Shown piece by piece: positions 46,300-60,301 of a stretch of DNA of 64,000 nucleotides. Position 1 is the stretch's first letter, and each line of letters starts with the position of its first letter. A model generated the notes under the pieces. It was not told where the DNA came from. It searched no databases and saw only the letters and a program-made list of their open reading frames with translations. The position numbers and the translations under genes are program-made. Origin of the DNA: Rosistilla oblonga. Its GTDB lineage: Bacteria > Planctomycetota > Planctomycetia > Pirellulales > Pirellulaceae. The DNA lies in NCBI RefSeq assembly GCF_007751715.1, contig NZ_CP036292.1, positions 5,587,339 to 5,651,338 on the forward strand. Reading direction: 5' to 3'.

Positions 46300-46370
46300 G
46301 TCTTCAATTGCCTTCGCTCCCCAGCACTTTACAATTGCTTTCATGTGGGCAACTCGCGGAGGATTTTCCG

Positions 46371-47444
46371 ATGACGATGGCTCGAAAGTATCTTGTCGAT
46401 CCAGCGGTGACACGTTGGTATCACTGTATCTCACGCTGCGTGCGACAAACGCTACTCTTGCACGACAACAGTAGAGATACCAAGCGAGACTGGCGGCAGT
46501 GGATCGAAGATCGACTGCAATTGCTCGATTCTAACTTCGCCATTTCAGTGGGCGGGTTTTCCGTGATGGACAACCACCTGCATGTGCTGTGCAGGCTCGA
46601 TCCCGAGGCGGCTGATCGATGGAGTCCCCAGGAAGTCATGCGGCGATGGATTGCCATCTATCCCCCGAAAACGCTCAAGTCGGACGACGAGAAGGCTGTT
46701 CGGCAATGGCTTGAAAAACACGCAAAGGACGCACGGCGGGTGACTCTATTGCGAGATCGGCTCAAAAATCTTGGCTGGTTCATGAAATCGCTCAAAGAAC
46801 CACTCGCCAGGCTTGCCAACAAAGCCGATGGCTGCCGCGGGACGTTTTGGGAAGCACGCTATAAGAGCATTGCGATTCTCGACGACGATGCCCTCTTGGC
46901 GACAAGCACCTACATCGACCTCAACCCACTGGCTGCCGGAATCGCCTCGACTCCAGAGCAGGGTCTACACACGTCGATACACCAACGTGTCGAACATGTT
47001 TGCCAGAAGGGCGAAAAAGAAATCGAGCGGTTGAAGGCGGCCCGCCGGGGGAGTGTCGCCGCAAGTGTTGCCGCTGGCGCGATGGAACAAGACCATTGGC
47101 TCGTCCCGATCGAAGACCGCCGAACCGCATTGCGAGATGAAGCCGGCGGGCTAGAGTGTCGCGAGGGGATGCTGGAATCGTTTCCGCTGGGAAGCTACCT
47201 GCTGGTGCTGGATTACACCGGACGTCTATTTCGCGAGGGCAAAGCAAACATGGAAGCAGGAGTGAAAGAAGTCTTTGACCGACTATCATCAACACTCGAA
47301 GCCTGGCAGACTCGGGCCGACAAGATGCTTCACGCAAAGAGCCTACGCGGCAGCTTTTTTGCATCCAACAACCAGACAGTCGCAGAGATCACCACCGCAC
47401 CTGGCCATCACTTCCGCAACCTATCGCCCCAACCGCCCGACTAG
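46371..47444 (+). CDS. REP-associated tyrosine transposase-like protein (Y1/HUH)
   Basis: This is a 357-residue IS200-like Y1 transposase of the RAYT type. The HUH metal site is in MDNHLHVLC near residue 65. The catalytic region includes GTFWEARYKSIAIL and the signature YIDLNPLAAG, where Tyr would attack DNA. It is longer than classical IS200 enzymes (about 150 residues), having a C-terminal extension from about residue 215. ATG 46371 follows GGAGG by 8 bases. Flanking GGGACAGGC repeats in opposite orientations are the likely substrates. It is a single-copy gene here with no IS ends. Confidence 0.88.
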   Translation: MTMARKYLVDPAVTRWYHCISRCVRQTLLLHDNSRDTKRDWRQWIEDRLQLLDSNFAISVGGFSVMDNHLHVLCRLDPEAADRWSPQEVMRRWIAIYPPKTLKSDDEKAVRQWLEKHAKDARRVTLLRDRLKNLGWFMKSLKEPLARLANKADGCRGTFWEARYKSIAILDDDALLATSTYIDLNPLAAGIASTPEQGLHTSIHQRVEHVCQKGEKEIERLKAARRGSVAASVAAGAMEQDHWLVPIEDRRTALRDEAGGLECREGMLESFPLGSYLLVLDYTGRLFREGKANMEAGVKEVFDRLSSTLEAWQTRADKMLHAKSLRGSFFASNNQTVAEITTAPGHHFRNLSPQPPD

Positions 47445-49110: not shown

Positions 49111-50181
49111 CTAGGGGATTCCGCGAACGATCGCTGGGCCAATCGATCTCGTTAGCCACACGGGCAACTTCTGCCAGATCTTGATTCGCCGCTGATTCGT
49201 TTGCGAATCGGGACGCATCGCTTCGACATCTCCTTTGCGGACATAATACTGCCAAACCGCTGGATGTGGCTGAGCCCCCCACTGCGCTTTGAACTTAGAG
49301 GTGCCACTATCGATGCTGCTGCGGCCAAAGTCGAAAGTGCGACTGCCACGCTCAATGGCACGACGCAGCAGATGCCGGTACATCCACATATTCGCTCCCG
49401 TCGGATTAGCCACCCTCAAACAACTGGCGCTGGGGACCTCGGTCACTCCGTCGGCATGCACCAACACCGCCCCCGCCACAGGGAATAGCTTTTCCTGCTC
49501 CGCTTGATAAACAACACACAACTCCGCATCCCCGGCAAAAGCATCGAGGATCTCGGCGAACAGCCGCTTGGAGAAGACCGGCGTCCCCAAGTCGCGCATG
49601 TTGACAGCGAAGACATGGTAGAAGTCGTCCAACAACTCGCTGCCTCCCCAAGCGATCCGATGATCGAATTGGCCCGCCTTGCGAACCTGGCTGCGGAGCT
49701 TTGACTTGAACGATTTGTCGAGCAGTTCATCCGTGGTTGGTAACGGCAACCGCATGTGGACTTTATCGGTCCGTTGAAAGTTCAGCCGCGGATGCTCAAC
49801 AGGCTGTTCCTGCCTGAGTTCTAGATATTTAACGTCCAGCTCATCAGCTAACTGACAAGCCCGATCGATCAACCGCGTCGCCACGTCGGCATCGGTCGCC
49901 CAAACACCGCCGGTATTGATGTAAGGCAGCGAGACCAGAAAGCTGCCAAAGATGGGACCTTTAACCAGCATCAACGGCAGCACTCCAGCGACCTGATCGC
50001 CGTGCCGCACCGTGACCAAATAGCTTGGGTGCCGCAAGCCCTTGGCGATCGCTACGCTCCACGCGGGATGATGCCCTGCCAAGCGAGGCCAGCGGGCGTC
50101 GCAAGTGGGCAGTAAACCGAAACACATACCATCGCGGCCATTCAACTCTTGAACCTCAACAACCAGATCCGTCCCAGCCAC
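49111..50181 (-). CDS. FemAB-like protein, PEP-CTERM system associated
   Basis: This 356-residue acyltransferase-fold protein of the FemAB/GNAT type is the kind often found with exosortase/PEP-CTERM systems. Recognisable parts are HPSYLVTVRHGDQVAGVLPL, FKSKLRSQVRKAGQFDHRIA and the C-terminal FDFGRSSIDSGTSKFKAQWG. The frame opens at 50205 inside a terminator T-run, so I prefer the GTG at 50181, which follows GAGG. Its first part (to about residue 130) is duplicated at 52005-52401. It sits directly downstream of a PEP-CTERM gene. Confidence 0.85.
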   Translation of the reverse strand: MAGTDLVVEVQELNGRDGMCFGLLPTCDARWPRLAGHHPAWSVAIAKGLRHPSYLVTVRHGDQVAGVLPLMLVKGPIFGSFLVSLPYINTGGVWATDADVATRLIDRACQLADELDVKYLELRQEQPVEHPRLNFQRTDKVHMRLPLPTTDELLDKSFKSKLRSQVRKAGQFDHRIAWGGSELLDDFYHVFAVNMRDLGTPVFSKRLFAEILDAFAGDAELCVVYQAEQEKLFPVAGAVLVHADGVTEVPSASCLRVANPTGANMWMYRHLLRRAIERGSRTFDFGRSSIDSGTSKFKAQWGAQPHPAVWQYYVRKGDVEAMRPDSQTNQRRIKIWQKLPVWLTRSIGPAIVRGIP

Positions 50182-50202
50182 AAACACCTCGCAACGCAAA
50201 AA

Positions 50203-50239
50203 CAAAAAAAGGCAGGCCCTCGATAAGAGAGCCTACCTT
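50203..50239 (-). terminator. Terminator of PEP-CTERM gene A
   Basis: A 12-bp stem with one wobble pair (AGGTAGGCTCTC / GAGGGCCTGCCT on the minus strand) is followed by seven T residues. A homologous terminator follows PEP-CTERM gene B. Confidence 0.88.
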
Positions 50240-51756: not shown

Positions 51757-52004
51757 GCGCTCCCCAAACAAGGATGACTCCCAAATGCACTAGGTAGATG
51801 TCCGGCATTGGCGATCATTCCCCAACGCGGTATTTCCTTGTAGCATCGAAGCTGCTTTTCTACAGCGTGATCTCCTCTCGCGTATTGATTCCCTCCCGCG
51901 GCAGGATAGCCGCCACCGGCCCCCACTATCGATTCAAACAGCGATTGGGATTGCTGTGCGTGCGAGAGCTCCCCTGCAAAAGAGGCGGGACTTCCTACGG
52001 TGAC
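51757..52004 (-). pseudogene. 3' fragment of a ydcF-like gene
   Basis: This stretch matches the middle and end of the intact YdcF-like gene at 53898-54785. The translated pieces SHAQQSQSLFESI and RWGMIANAGHLP correspond to SHAAQARGLLESI and RWGMITNAGHMP there. It has no start and its end has decayed. It lies directly after the FemAB fragment, in another frame. Confidence 0.85.
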
Positions 52005-52401
52005 GCAGCCGCGGATGCTCGACAGGCTGTTCGTGCCTGAGCTCCAGATATTTAACGTCCAGTTCATCGGCCCGCCAGCACGCCCGACCGATCAACCGCG
52101 TCGCCGCCTTGGCGCCGGCCGCCCAGACACCGCTGGTATCGATGTAAGGCAGCGAGACCAGAAAGCTGCCAAAGATGGGACCGTTTACGAGCAAAAACGG
52201 CAGCACACCGGCGACCTGATCGCCGTGCCGCACCGTGGTCGAGTAGCTCGGATGCTGCAACCCCTTGGCGATCGCGGCTCTACAAGCGGCATGACGCCCT
52301 GCTAGGAGATGCCACAGAGGGTCGCCAGCAGGCAAAAGTTGACGCGATTCACTTCGCAGCCAGTCAGGCCTTGAACGTCGCCCCCAATCCGTCCCAGACA
52401 C
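52005..52401 (-). pseudogene. 5' fragment of a FemAB-like gene
   Basis: About 130 codons match the start of the intact FemAB-like gene, with shared phrases GDQVAGVLP, GPIFGSFLVSLPYI and ADELDVKYLELR. The match ends abruptly after EQPVEHPRL at the duplication junction and the frame then runs into ydcF sequence. The catalytic part is missing, so it is non-functional as a FemAB protein. Confidence 0.88.
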
Positions 52402-52422
52402 AAACACCTTGTATCGCCGAAA

Positions 52423-52459
52423 CAAAAAAAGGCAGGTCCTCGATGCGAGAACCTGCCTT
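52423..52459 (-). terminator. Terminator of PEP-CTERM gene B
   Basis: The minus-strand stem GGCAGGTTCTCG / CGAGGACCTGCC, with a 3-base loop, is followed by seven T residues. It is homologous to the terminator of copy A. Confidence 0.88.
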
Positions 52460-57515: not shown

Positions 57516-59714
57516 TCAAACATCCTTGGCAAATTGGATGCGTTTAGTCCAAGTCAGCGGATCCAACCAGGTTCGAATCCGCGGCAACGGATAATGCTCC
57601 ATCTTCCACATCGCGAAGCGGCGGCTTCTGGAACGCAACGTGGGGCCGTCGGGAATGGTGGCTCGCCGCATGTCCCTGTACAATCGCCGGTGCCGCAACC
57701 TTTCTGGACTTTCCTGCAGCAACAGCTGACAAAATTCCTGCGGCTGGCCACGCCCAACAAGATCGGCCACCAATAGCAGCACCGTTGCCACAGCCCGACC
57801 GATGCCAAGCTCAGTGGTTCGTCGCGCAAACTGATCCCAATCGAATGAAGACACAGAGCCCCCGAGCGAATCTTCAGGCCGGCCTTCGATCAAGCAATAG
57901 ATATCCCACAGATCTCGATAGGCGCGACGAAATTCACCGGTATGGGCAAGATTTATGATTGCATGGATGGTTCGATCGACAGGATCAAGGATGTGGAATG
58001 GACTATCGGAAATCGGCGTCGCTCGTTCAATGAAAGCGTGGGCGCAGAAGCTGTTCGGATCCGCCATTGGCAGTAACCGGAAGTGAACGTCCAGTTCGAT
58101 TCGTCGATAAGGATGACTGACCGGAGGCGTTTCGTGCAACCAACGCCGATAGTATCGAACATCCGCCTCCGACAACTCATAACTGGCTGAGTATCCTGCG
58201 TCGGCTAACACCTTTTCGACCGACGCAAGCGAATTCTCCGGAACCAGTAGATCGAGATCGTTAGTGATCCGCCCTCTAGCCCATGGAAGGTCGGCAGCGA
58301 TGTAGGCGGCACCTTTTAATAAGACGATTCGGTTGCAAACCGCAGGCAGCAACTGCTGCAGATGCAGCAATTCAAATTCGATCGATTTGCGAACTAAATC
58401 CTCGCATTGATTTTCTCGAATCAAAACCCGTCGAACGACATCGGGCAACGATGCGAGCCCGTCGCCGGACAACTGCCGTGCGATCCGCGGCAACAACTCG
58501 GTGTGACTTGCGATCAACACCAATTGGTCCCACTGCTTCAACGTCAATCCGACAACCGAATCCGGATCGTGCAGGGCGTCGACCAACATTCGCAGGCCCG
58601 GAGCGACGTCGTCGGTAGACCTTGCCAGATAACTTTTGTTTTGTGTCGGCAACGCTTCCGATTCAGTGATTTGGTGCGAAGCAGCGTCATTGTCCGCTGG
58701 CTCCAGCACGATCGCTGATTCGCCAACATCCGCCGATTTTGCAGCGACTGTTGAACGCTCGCCTCCCGTCACGCATGGCAACGCATCGATCAACGGATCG
58801 TGTCGCAAGAATTTTTCAGCGTCCGCGGCGTCTTCGTAGACGAGTTCAAACGCGGGCACACGTTTCGCTAGCTCGACGGTTGTTTCGAAACCTCGTTTAC
58901 CGAGCGAGCGAAAGTTGAGCCCGTACTGCGAAAGTCGCGAAAACAATGTCCCTCGCTCGATCGGATTCAATTCCGGCTTCGCATCCGCAACACGGCGTGG
59001 GAACACGATCGCGACGGGAGCAAAACGTTGACCGGACAACTCCCGCGTTTCCTCGGTTGGCAACAGATGGGCGACCCGCACCGGTGGATCGAGAATCCGT
59101 CCCGAGGGACCAAAGATGGCCCGTTCGCCATAACGCTGGGACATCATCTCCAGCGAATGCCCTTTTAAGATCGTCGGGCGCCCGAGTCCAGTTAGATGAA
59201 AATCGTCGAGATCAAACAGCGAGATCTCGTCACTCAACAGCCCCCAGCCCGACATCATCAACGTCGACGCCAGCGTACTTTTACCCGCCCCCGACAGTCC
59301 TGGGAAAACGATTGCCCCGCCGTTTCCCCCCGGCCGCACTGCTGCGGCTGCGTGAACTGCCAACGCATCATCCGCACCGCGAAAAATGCAGTGGCTGAAG
59401 ATCCACTCGATCGCCCCAACGGTCAGCCGTTTGGGCCACTGATGCCAAACCTGACCATTGACCGTCGAAATCACAGTTCGTCTGCCACGCAGGATTCCCG
59501 GATCGTGTCGAACCCGGAACGTCGAAAAGTCTGCTGGCCCCCGTAGAGGATGGTGGGGATACAGCCGATGCACGCCAGTAGCGATTTCAGCAATGGGGGA
59601 CTGCAACCGAAATTCACAGGGCCCCAGCGTCAACCCAATCCCGTCCCCTTTTAAGCGTTCCGCAATGTCGCGGGGCGTCGCCTCACCAATTCTCAATTTG
59701 TCGCTTCCAAGCAA
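57516..59714 (-). CDS. HprK-related kinase A fused to nucleotidyltransferase
   Basis: This is a 732-residue fusion. The N-terminal half (to about 330) resembles HPr kinase/phosphorylase relatives: a P-loop GLSGAGKSTLAST near residue 138, then LLSDEISLFDLD and FHLTGLGRPTI. The C-terminal half (from about 370) is a nucleotidyltransferase-fold protein with the site RITNDLDLLVPENS near residue 484. The two are usually separate neighbouring genes (HprK_rel_A and the NTP_transf_5 type, from memory) in exosortase-linked loci. The kinase target is unknown. The gene overlaps the PqqD-like gene by 22 bp. Confidence 0.85.
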   Translation of the reverse strand: MLGSDKLRIGEATPRDIAERLKGDGIGLTLGPCEFRLQSPIAEIATGVHRLYPHHPLRGPADFSTFRVRHDPGILRGRRTVISTVNGQVWHQWPKRLTVGAIEWIFSHCIFRGADDALAVHAAAAVRPGGNGGAIVFPGLSGAGKSTLASTLMMSGWGLLSDEISLFDLDDFHLTGLGRPTILKGHSLEMMSQRYGERAIFGPSGRILDPPVRVAHLLPTEETRELSGQRFAPVAIVFPRRVADAKPELNPIERGTLFSRLSQYGLNFRSLGKRGFETTVELAKRVPAFELVYEDAADAEKFLRHDPLIDALPCVTGGERSTVAAKSADVGESAIVLEPADNDAASHQITESEALPTQNKSYLARSTDDVAPGLRMLVDALHDPDSVVGLTLKQWDQLVLIASHTELLPRIARQLSGDGLASLPDVVRRVLIRENQCEDLVRKSIEFELLHLQQLLPAVCNRIVLLKGAAYIAADLPWARGRITNDLDLLVPENSLASVEKVLADAGYSASYELSEADVRYYRRWLHETPPVSHPYRRIELDVHFRLLPMADPNSFCAHAFIERATPISDSPFHILDPVDRTIHAIINLAHTGEFRRAYRDLWDIYCLIEGRPEDSLGGSVSSFDWDQFARRTTELGIGRAVATVLLLVADLVGRGQPQEFCQLLLQESPERLRHRRLYRDMRRATIPDGPTLRSRSRRFAMWKMEHYPLPRIRTWLDPLTWTKRIQFAKDV

Positions 59715-60004
59715 ACGATTCCAACGTGCGCCAATTGAGCTATAGATTCTTCAGTGTACTGAAGCAACCGTTGGTCGATGGGAAGATCGAGCGAAGCAGC
59801 CACCAGACGTACCAAAACGTCCATGTCAATGGCAGTATGATTCATCTCGCAAAGCGTACGGAGAATCTGAGCATCGATCGCATTCAACATATAGGAATCT
59901 GAATACAGCGAGTTGTAGACAGCGAATTCGTGTTCGGAGAGTGGTTCGAGCACCACGTCTTTCACTATCATCCGCCAACGAGAAGAAGTGTCCAATGACT
60001 TCAT
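59693..60004 (-). CDS. PqqD-like peptide-binding protein
   Basis: This 103-residue protein has the winged-helix PqqD-like layout: a short strand region, then SDSYMLNAIDAQILRTLCEM and a helical region with LLQYTEESIAQLAHVGIVCL. PqqD proteins bind leader peptides of modified precursors. It fits the 'HPr-rel-A system PqqD family' noted in exosortase loci. It overlaps the kinase gene by 22 bp and lies 90 bp downstream of a 68-aa peptide gene, its possible client. Confidence 0.8.
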   Translation of the reverse strand: MKSLDTSSRWRMIVKDVVLEPLSEHEFAVYNSLYSDSYMLNAIDAQILRTLCEMNHTAIDMDVLVRLVAASLDLPIDQRLLQYTEESIAQLAHVGIVCLEATN

Positions 60005-60094
60005 TGGCTAAAATGACTCCCGGAACATTCATGCCCTACTTGCGGAATGGTTATTGTGTCAACTCAACCGCAGTCCCAAATACCGTCGGGGGTT

Positions 60095-60301
60095 CTACGC
60101 TGTACTCGGACCAGAAGCTTTCGAGCCGGTACCGTCAGCATAGGCTGTTTGAGCGGATCCGGCCACGATCAATGGACTCCCCATCATTGCGGCGGCAAGC
60201 AGCATCCGACGGCGTTGCTTCATCGATTTGATATTATCGGAGTCCGAAAACAGGCATTCGTCTTCCGATTTGATCGGTAGATTCTCTTTTTTCTCGTTCA
60301 T
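60095..60301 (-). CDS. 68-aa exported peptide, candidate precursor
   Basis: The predicted peptide has an acidic N-terminal stretch (KSEDECLFSDSDNIKS), then a twin-arginine-like signal sequence (KQRRRMLLAAAMMGSPLIV, ending SAQTAYA). It ends with a 13-residue Gly/Ser-rich tail DGTGSKASGPSTA. If cleaved after AYA, only this tail would be released. A shorter start at MKQRRRM is possible. The gene is first in the same-strand series with PqqD-like and kinase genes. Coding is supported by layout rather than by homology I can recall. Confidence 0.6.
   Translation of the reverse strand: MNEKKENLPIKSEDECLFSDSDNIKSMKQRRRMLLAAAMMGSPLIVAGSAQTAYADGTGSKASGPSTA

Follow-up and report, generated by a model that had tools for sequence, protein, structure and literature searches.

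A short, probable client gene with a twin-arginine leader beside PqqD-like and HprK-like genes in Rosistilla oblonga, and its likely place among phosphorylated peptide systems

Within a 64,000-nucleotide stretch of Rosistilla oblonga DNA (contig NZ_CP036292.1, positions 5,587,339 to 5,651,338; hereafter the window), three open reading frames (ORFs) of the minus strand follow one another in the order that a preliminary description of this DNA had reported. They encode a 68-amino-acid (aa) peptide, a PqqD-like protein, and a kinase fused to a nucleotidyltransferase. On our best reading, made largely by analogy with known clusters, the cassette belongs to the phosphorylated kind of ribosomally synthesized and post-translationally modified peptide (RiPP) systems, as a variant whose client gene is real and conserved. 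Kinase and "peptide chaperone" are named by NCBI as a system, the substrate of which is named nowhere that we found; here, we propose a client for it in two Gram-negative phyla. The 68-aa example is small enough to be made and tested, with RRR 30–32, Pro43, and Ser60/63/66 as the key residues.

The peptide gene is almost certainly real. A homologous peptide is found at the same place in G531, of the same genus, and in G590, of the same family (G and L numbers are our own handles for genomes and loci), where the kinase–nucleotidyltransferase is 74% and 51% identical to that of the window, respectively. Between the window and G531, the peptide gene shows 24.3 synonymous and 18.7 non-synonymous changes, that is, an omega (dN/dS) of 0.155, close to the 0.166 of the kinase–nucleotidyltransferase gene; with G590, the synonymous sites are saturated. 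Judged from these codon comparisons, purifying selection acts on the peptide. QRRRML, a core ending in IVAGSAQ, and A.A ahead of the tail are common to all three peptides, while Ser60 and Ser63 are kept in both relatives and Ser66 in G590 only.

Two further searches place the peptide among relatives. When the peptide alone was compared with 146 genomes of the order, two matches without significance of their own, numbers 2 (E 0.014) and 5 (E 0.049), adjoined kinase loci in G037 and G011 that had come from a separate, independent search, and it is this position that counts. A leader profile (A4) built from 34 leaders, with the window and its two nearest relatives left out, gave the window peptide (E 0.0044) the second rank in its genome of 7.25 Mb (150 of 338 candidates scored), the top match being a 491-aa frame with a start of the twin-arginine translocation (Tat) type.

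The preliminary description had raised the possibility that the peptide is a client of the PqqD-like protein and a target of the kinase or nucleotidyltransferase, and had suggested a search for a conserved short ORF in relatives, the absence of which would have counted against the idea. Such an ORF is present, and the partnership is conserved. Among 28 Planctomycetota loci other than that of the window, 22 have a client ORF with a twin-Arg leader next to the PqqD/HprK-like genes, namely G011, G037, G084, and G089; G208, G328, G508, and G490; G531, G590, G557, and G600; seven of 11 further loci from the order of G328; and all three of the further loci viewed after the pattern was known. The locus in G028 is cut by a contig end. 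The cassette is nevertheless accessory, because the kinase was found in only five of 119 genomes of the window's family, its own counted, and G585, of the same genus, gave no kinase match, whereas G531 has the cassette; wide conservation across the family was therefore rejected.

A wider sample came from named genomes, in which a kinase alignment fetched the best 80 of at least 238 stretches encoding a relative; the titles are nearly all Pseudomonadota, with L135 and L152 from Planctomycetota. With a leader-region profile built from 26 of these loci, 70 of the 80 proved to have a client ORF directly ahead of the kinase gene. Sixty-eight of these clients score ≥14 bits, all 26 seeds included, and the two that score 5–10 bits (L130 and L143) are clearly client-like on reading. 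Five more were recognized by eye (L106, L109, L128, L142, and L154), so that an upstream twin-Arg client is present in 75 of the 80 loci. Elsewhere in these loci, the profile has 32 matches at ≥5 bits and two at ≥10 bits, in L085 (11.8 bits) and L121 (36.5 bits); the latter sits 2.1 kb downstream of the kinase and is probably the client of that locus. Outside the 75 are L121 itself, L101, L145, and L151 (each with <750 bases upstream), and L152, which has an ORF that reads like a transposase (by reading alone).

The other genes keep their places as well. The PqqD-like gene adjoins the kinase in 77 of the 80 loci, and a relative of the nucleotidyltransferase domain lies downstream in 79, the locus without it (L120) having ~720 bases of contig left. 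L135, from the Planctomycetaceae, has the leader of G208, a genome of the window's phylum. The kinase is also found in four plasmid records, three of them from Vibrio alfacsensis; in the two that were read (Vibrio and Sphingomonas), the upstream ORF has a twin-Arg leader, with SCMSGNAS in the Vibrio client and a weak Ser pattern only in that of Sphingomonas. By gene order and leader similarity, two Gram-negative phyla share the neighborhood of client, PqqD-like, and kinase genes, and the 68-aa peptide is very probably the client of the kinase/PqqD-like module.

The PqqD-like protein is, by its predicted structure, a discrete RiPP recognition element (RRE) that resembles lasso B1 proteins. It matches TIGR04353 with 27.6 bits (E 4.3e-6; curated cut-off 35), and E ≤0.001 against this family was reached by each of the 32 PqqD-like proteins scanned, that of the window among them. 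The model has a predicted local distance difference test (pLDDT) score of 90.9, and its top Protein Data Bank (PDB) folds in Foldseek belong to two lasso B1 proteins whose structures include leader peptides, TbiB1 and TfuB1 (TbiB1 at probability 1.00 and E 0.007, with no PDB match at E ≤0.001); the list also mixes in winged-helix-bearing proteins (heterocyclases, PKMT, and NO66). A profile of 32 PqqD-like relatives matches TbiB1 by sequence as well (E 4.1e-4).

In the fused protein, the kinase domain matches the whole of TIGR04352 (HprK_rel_A) with 159.2 bits (E 1.1e-46; cut-off 200), and the nucleotidyltransferase domain matches PF14907 (NTP_transf_5) with 123.8 bits, above the cut-off of 31.2. 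Because 159.2 is below 200 and 27.6 is below 35 bits, neither the kinase nor the PqqD-like protein is a full NCBIfam member by the curated thresholds. Over the segment with the His, the P-loop, and the Asp, the profile of the kinase matches HPr kinases whose structures are known (E 1.7e-4), and ten aligned kinases have an invariant Glu after the Asp, where HPr kinase has a second Asp. Kinase and nucleotidyltransferase are fused not only in the window but also in open frames of 698–703 aa in three further genomes.

Clients come in two sizes, long (181–282 aa; alignment A3, Pseudomonadota plus L096) and short (62–127 aa; 20 Planctomycetota compared), with the leader RR....KAG..AAPV..TL.SR.A.A in common and little else alike. 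As aligned, the conserved part across relatives is the signal-peptide section of the leader. In 50 long clients with a mean column identity of 16%, nothing is invariant except the start Met, the twin Arg, and two Ser that follow shortly after the leader, with a Cys and one more Ser reaching 90%; each of the two invariant Ser is present in 67 of the 70 profile-found clients. The invariance of the twin Arg is partly owed to how clients were chosen, since it stood in the seed pattern; the two Ser were not part of that pattern.

The window peptide is built as the preliminary description had it: it opens with an acidic stretch, has a hydrophobic core, and closes with 13 residues rich in Ser and Gly (56–68, after AYA). 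The acidic leader-like start and the signal-like core are both present, and the picture can be refined in that the acidic start runs into a conserved twin-Arg signal peptide. RRRMLL ahead of the hydrophobic stretch has the twin-Arg form of Tat substrates, and a Tat-type pattern fits 66 of 94 clients strictly and 81 when relaxed. A TatC gene is present in the genome (E 3.1e-53), as it is in 11 of 14 control genomes. Cleavage is predicted after AYA (residues 53–55).

Conservation of the Ser-rich tail, which the preliminary description had also wished to see checked, was found in that tail Ser are kept in many relatives. Six of the 20 short clients, from three genera of one order, have tails of 6–8 residues ending in Ser (SGGSGVS, SVSGAPS, SGPSGGPS, and SASIPS); other short clients have different tails, some of them Tyr-rich (G600, G557, G699, and G714). 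The pattern S..SG..S occurs in nine of the 20 short and 40 of the 74 long clients versus shuffle means of 1.2 and 5.9, a post hoc comparison that ignores relatedness and keeps in at least three wrongly trimmed long rows (L132, L134, and L138).

Some candidate features of the clients were set aside. A leader Pro with a hydrophobic residue two positions further on is found in 76 of 99 clients, with Tyr at −3 in only six; on our reading, this Pro/hydrophobic feature also occurs in three of eight ordinary long-frame Tat-like matches of the same genome. A universal YxxP-type RRE motif was kept only as a hypothesis. A known protein family for the clients was rejected, as none of the eight scanned against NCBIfam and Pfam gave a family above cut-off. 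In the long A3 clients (including L095, 5033–5659), an SPGYWK-like motif recurs in the C-terminal region; five of these clients gave nothing above cut-off in Pfam or NCBIfam, and the model of the L095 client (mean pLDDT 73.1) matched no PDB entry convincingly (at best, E 1.1 with a probability of 0.04).

How does the cassette compare with known systems? The HPr-rel-A system of NCBIfam (TIGR04352 kinase and TIGR04353 PqqD family peptide chaperone) has the same gene pair, and in the window the kinase, PqqD-like, and nucleotidyltransferase genes are adjacent as that system would have them; the window proteins are below the curated cut-offs, and no named client family was found in the scan of eight clients. 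Neither a paper on the HPr-rel-A system or the HprK-related kinase nor one joining PqqD, kinase, nucleotidyltransferase, and Planctomycetes was found in a literature search that left most subscription papers outside.

In the cluster for linear polyphosphorylated peptides (LPP), a precursor is accompanied by an RRE, an HprK-like kinase, an NTP transferase, a signal-peptidase-like leader peptidase, and an MsbA-like exporter; these clusters lie in capsular polysaccharide loci, are described as restricted to Bacillota, and have a kinase, LppK, that phosphorylates core Ser3 several times (Popov et al. 2026, Nat Commun, PMC13381572). The window likewise has an HprK-like kinase, a discrete RRE, and an NTP transferase next to a precursor ORF, and a conserved precursor N-terminus with a variable tail and a setting in polysaccharide loci are also alike. 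The LPP leader motif is YxxPxVLxHQxIxFET, with the Pro at −13, 12 residues before the last leader residue (PMC13381572). If the window peptide is cut after AYA, Pro43 to Ala55 would be the same Pro-to-cut distance, with a Ser soon after the cut. The motif itself is absent from the window, where Pro43 has Met at −3 and Ile at +2 and nothing more matches, and the leader here is a twin-Arg signal peptide, unlike that of LPP. Where LPP has a signal-peptidase (SpI)-like peptidase and an MsbA-like exporter, neither was seen among the 16 neighboring ORFs scanned (Pfam; seven of ten in one scan matchless; first 39.6 kb of the window outside the scan).

A second comparison is offered by the lasso peptides paeninodin and pseudomycoidin. 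PsmK phosphorylates the C-terminal Ser of pseudomycoidin, and PsmN, which may or may not be the glycosyltransferase itself, is needed for the hexoses on the phospho-Ser (PMC9266682). An HprK-like kinase acting on Ser, a nucleotidyltransferase partner, and a C-terminal Ser (as in six of the 20 short clients) are alike, whereas lasso clusters carry a macrolactam synthetase (C) and a B2 peptidase. Neither was found in the same scan of 16 ORFs, and the window peptide is without a lasso core.

We propose, with moderate confidence and by analogy, that the cassette is a Gram-negative relative of Bacillota LPP in which a Tat-type signal peptide would serve as the RiPP leader and tail Ser would be phosphorylated before export. 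The steps that we infer (binding, phosphorylation, a second modification, export, cleavage, and a role outside) would run as follows. The 68-aa ORF would encode the substrate of the proteins encoded behind it. The discrete RRE would hold the leader, which would double as a twin-Arg signal peptide, while in the cytoplasm the HprK-like domain would phosphorylate the 13-residue tail on at least one Ser, which we consider moderately probable. The fused NTP_transf_5 domain may then cap the phosphate with a sugar or nucleotide, a suggestion that is possible if somewhat doubtful. The modified peptide would leave through Tat and be cleaved after AYA, again with moderate probability; a twin-Arg signal peptide could provide export and cleavage alike, and Tat export would suit a substrate that has to undergo modification in the cytoplasm beforehand. 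The outcome would be a short, modified product located on the cell surface or within the exopolysaccharide matrix, where a role is likely. As a whole, the earlier interpretation is partly supported.

If this reading is correct, it links the phosphopeptide chemistry of Bacillota to Tat-type export and to XrtA/PEP-CTERM exopolysaccharide loci, and it would offer a route to the role of the NTP transferase in such systems, which was inactive in the LPP study (PMC13381572). A bolder version, which we consider rather unlikely, has the RRE binding the hydrophobic core of the Tat-type signal peptide and so gating export, the peptide staying out of the translocon's reach until phosphate and cap have been added to its tail Ser. 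A single leader would then serve both RiPP modification and protein export. Since the layout is like that of LPP (Pro at −13, Ser soon after the cut), LPP leaders and their signal-peptidase-like peptidase might go back to an ancestry in common with signal peptides of this sort. The 68-aa gene would be a minimal substrate in a family in which the larger members have a C-terminal domain without a family name.

Several points should be weighed against the proposal. It is built on sequences and models, and both the kinase and the PqqD-like protein are under the curated NCBIfam cut-offs. Five of the 28 Planctomycetota loci (G110, L165, L166, L173, and L174) are without a client despite available upstream DNA, 11 of the 20 short clients are without the S..SG..S pattern, and the three last-viewed Planctomycetota loci have different tails. 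Thirteen of the 94 leaders fail even the relaxed Tat pattern. In the LPP work, deletion of LppN changed nothing; LppN was inactive in the one system tested (PMC13381572).

Among the alternatives, the one that survives best, though we judge it improbable, is that the peptide is a small exported protein of exopolysaccharide loci and that the co-transcribed enzymes act on a polysaccharide, a lipid carrier, or another protein. Many clients do have 181–282 aa and possess their own C-terminal domain, tails vary, and the loci are rich in exopolysaccharide genes; the client, however, keeps company with the RRE and the kinase over two phyla and in many otherwise differing neighborhoods, and its most conserved parts are the leader and the Ser. 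Less probable still is that the leader alone is the client part, with the PqqD-like protein as a Tat-signal chaperone, the kinase regulating export, and no RiPP chemistry on the tail. This would suit a leader that is conserved more than the tail, and PqqD-like proteins do bind leaders, but it is at odds with the invariant Ser past the leader in the 50 long clients, with the Ser-ending tails of six short clients, and with the LPP and pseudomycoidin kinases, which act on core Ser (PMC13381572, PMC9266682). A toxin–antitoxin or defense unit, to which weak AbiEii matches of the nucleotidyltransferase domain (E 0.0062 in Pfam, 0.0042 in PADLOC) might point, was rejected as very improbable, since those matches are weak only, PF14907 fits far better (E 1.1e-35), the other two proteins are without a PADLOC match, and the RRE and the signal-peptide client would be left unexplained. 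Finally, although the window holds many ORFs of this size, an origin of the 68-aa ORF by chance has next to no probability and is refuted for practical purposes by the omega of 0.155, the conserved position, and the second rank genome-wide with an independent leader profile.

The proposed phosphorylated-RiPP cassette is laid out in Table 1. The preliminary description had given a 22-bp overlap between the PqqD-like and kinase genes, a figure that depends on the first TTG as the kinase start. The kinases of relatives start about six codons further in, at a point where a TTG in the window overlaps the stop codon of the PqqD-like gene, and for this reason a 4-nt TTGA stop/start overlap is, from sequence comparison, more likely. 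Overlaps of this type are a usual arrangement of coupled genes.

Table 1. Features of the cassette and an associated gene in the window, with the evidence for each.
Feature	Position	Strand	Evidence or remark
68-aa client peptide gene	60301-60095	(-)	ATG start; position kept in G531 and G590; omega 0.155; leader-profile match
Leader, residues 1-55: acidic stretch, RRR 30-32, hydrophobic core with Pro43, AYA 53-55	60137..60301	(-)	Sequence; 34-leader alignment
Tail, residues 56-68 (DGTGSKASGPSTA); Ser60, Ser63, and Ser66 are proposed modification sites	60098..60136	(-)	Conservation
PqqD-like discrete RRE (as modeled), 103 aa	60004-59693	(-)	TIGR04353; model; lasso B1 folds; TbiB1 profile match
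Fused kinase–nucleotidyltransferase, 732 aa	57516..59714	(-)	TIGR04352, PF14907; start more likely TTG at 59696
HprK_rel_A kinase domain, residues 28-304	58803..59633	(-)	TIGR04352; His, P-loop GAGKST, SDE
NTP_transf_5 domain, residues 394-653, with DLDLL	57756..58535	(-)	PF14907, E 1.1e-35
TTGA, probable overlap of PqqD-like stop and kinase start	59693..59696	(-)	Later start in relatives
FemAB family XrtA/PEP-CTERM system-associated protein	49111..50205	(-)	TIGR03019, 316.6 bits (cut-off 260.35)

The tie to an exopolysaccharide locus drawn in the preliminary description is supported by the XrtA/PEP-CTERM FemAB gene, near which a second, partial FemAB match lies at 51934–52425 (66.8 bits); the window also has glycosyltransferase, VanZ, and DUF218 genes. 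In the named genomes, a neighbor family that recurs in 24 of the 80 loci has the XrtA/PEP-CTERM export protein TIGR03027 as its representative, and the families found in 22, 21, and 18 loci are represented by TIGR03007, TIGR03018, and TIGR02917, respectively.

Weaker kinases were kept apart. One kinase search gave a match in 48 genomes, with loci made from the best 30 matches, and the 25 loci with its weaker kinases (L050–L074) were excluded from the client counts. By eye, short ORFs of the RR type are seen in L050, L055, L063, L068, and L074 and not in the other 20. L063 (324–881) and L068 (357–957) each have two tandem RR-leader short ORFs upstream of the weaker HprK-like kinase, with the leader motif Y.(A/T)P..LT, while in L051, L059, and L060 the ORF upstream of such a kinase reads like a radical SAM protein (by reading alone). 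On a Vibrio alfacsensis plasmid (L200, 4878–7945) with client, kinase, and nucleotidyltransferase genes, a short ORF that lies between the first two is missing from the gene table. In the window itself, the plus-strand ORF at 46308–47444 weakly resembles a REP-associated tyrosine transposase (36.9 bits against a cut-off of 80).

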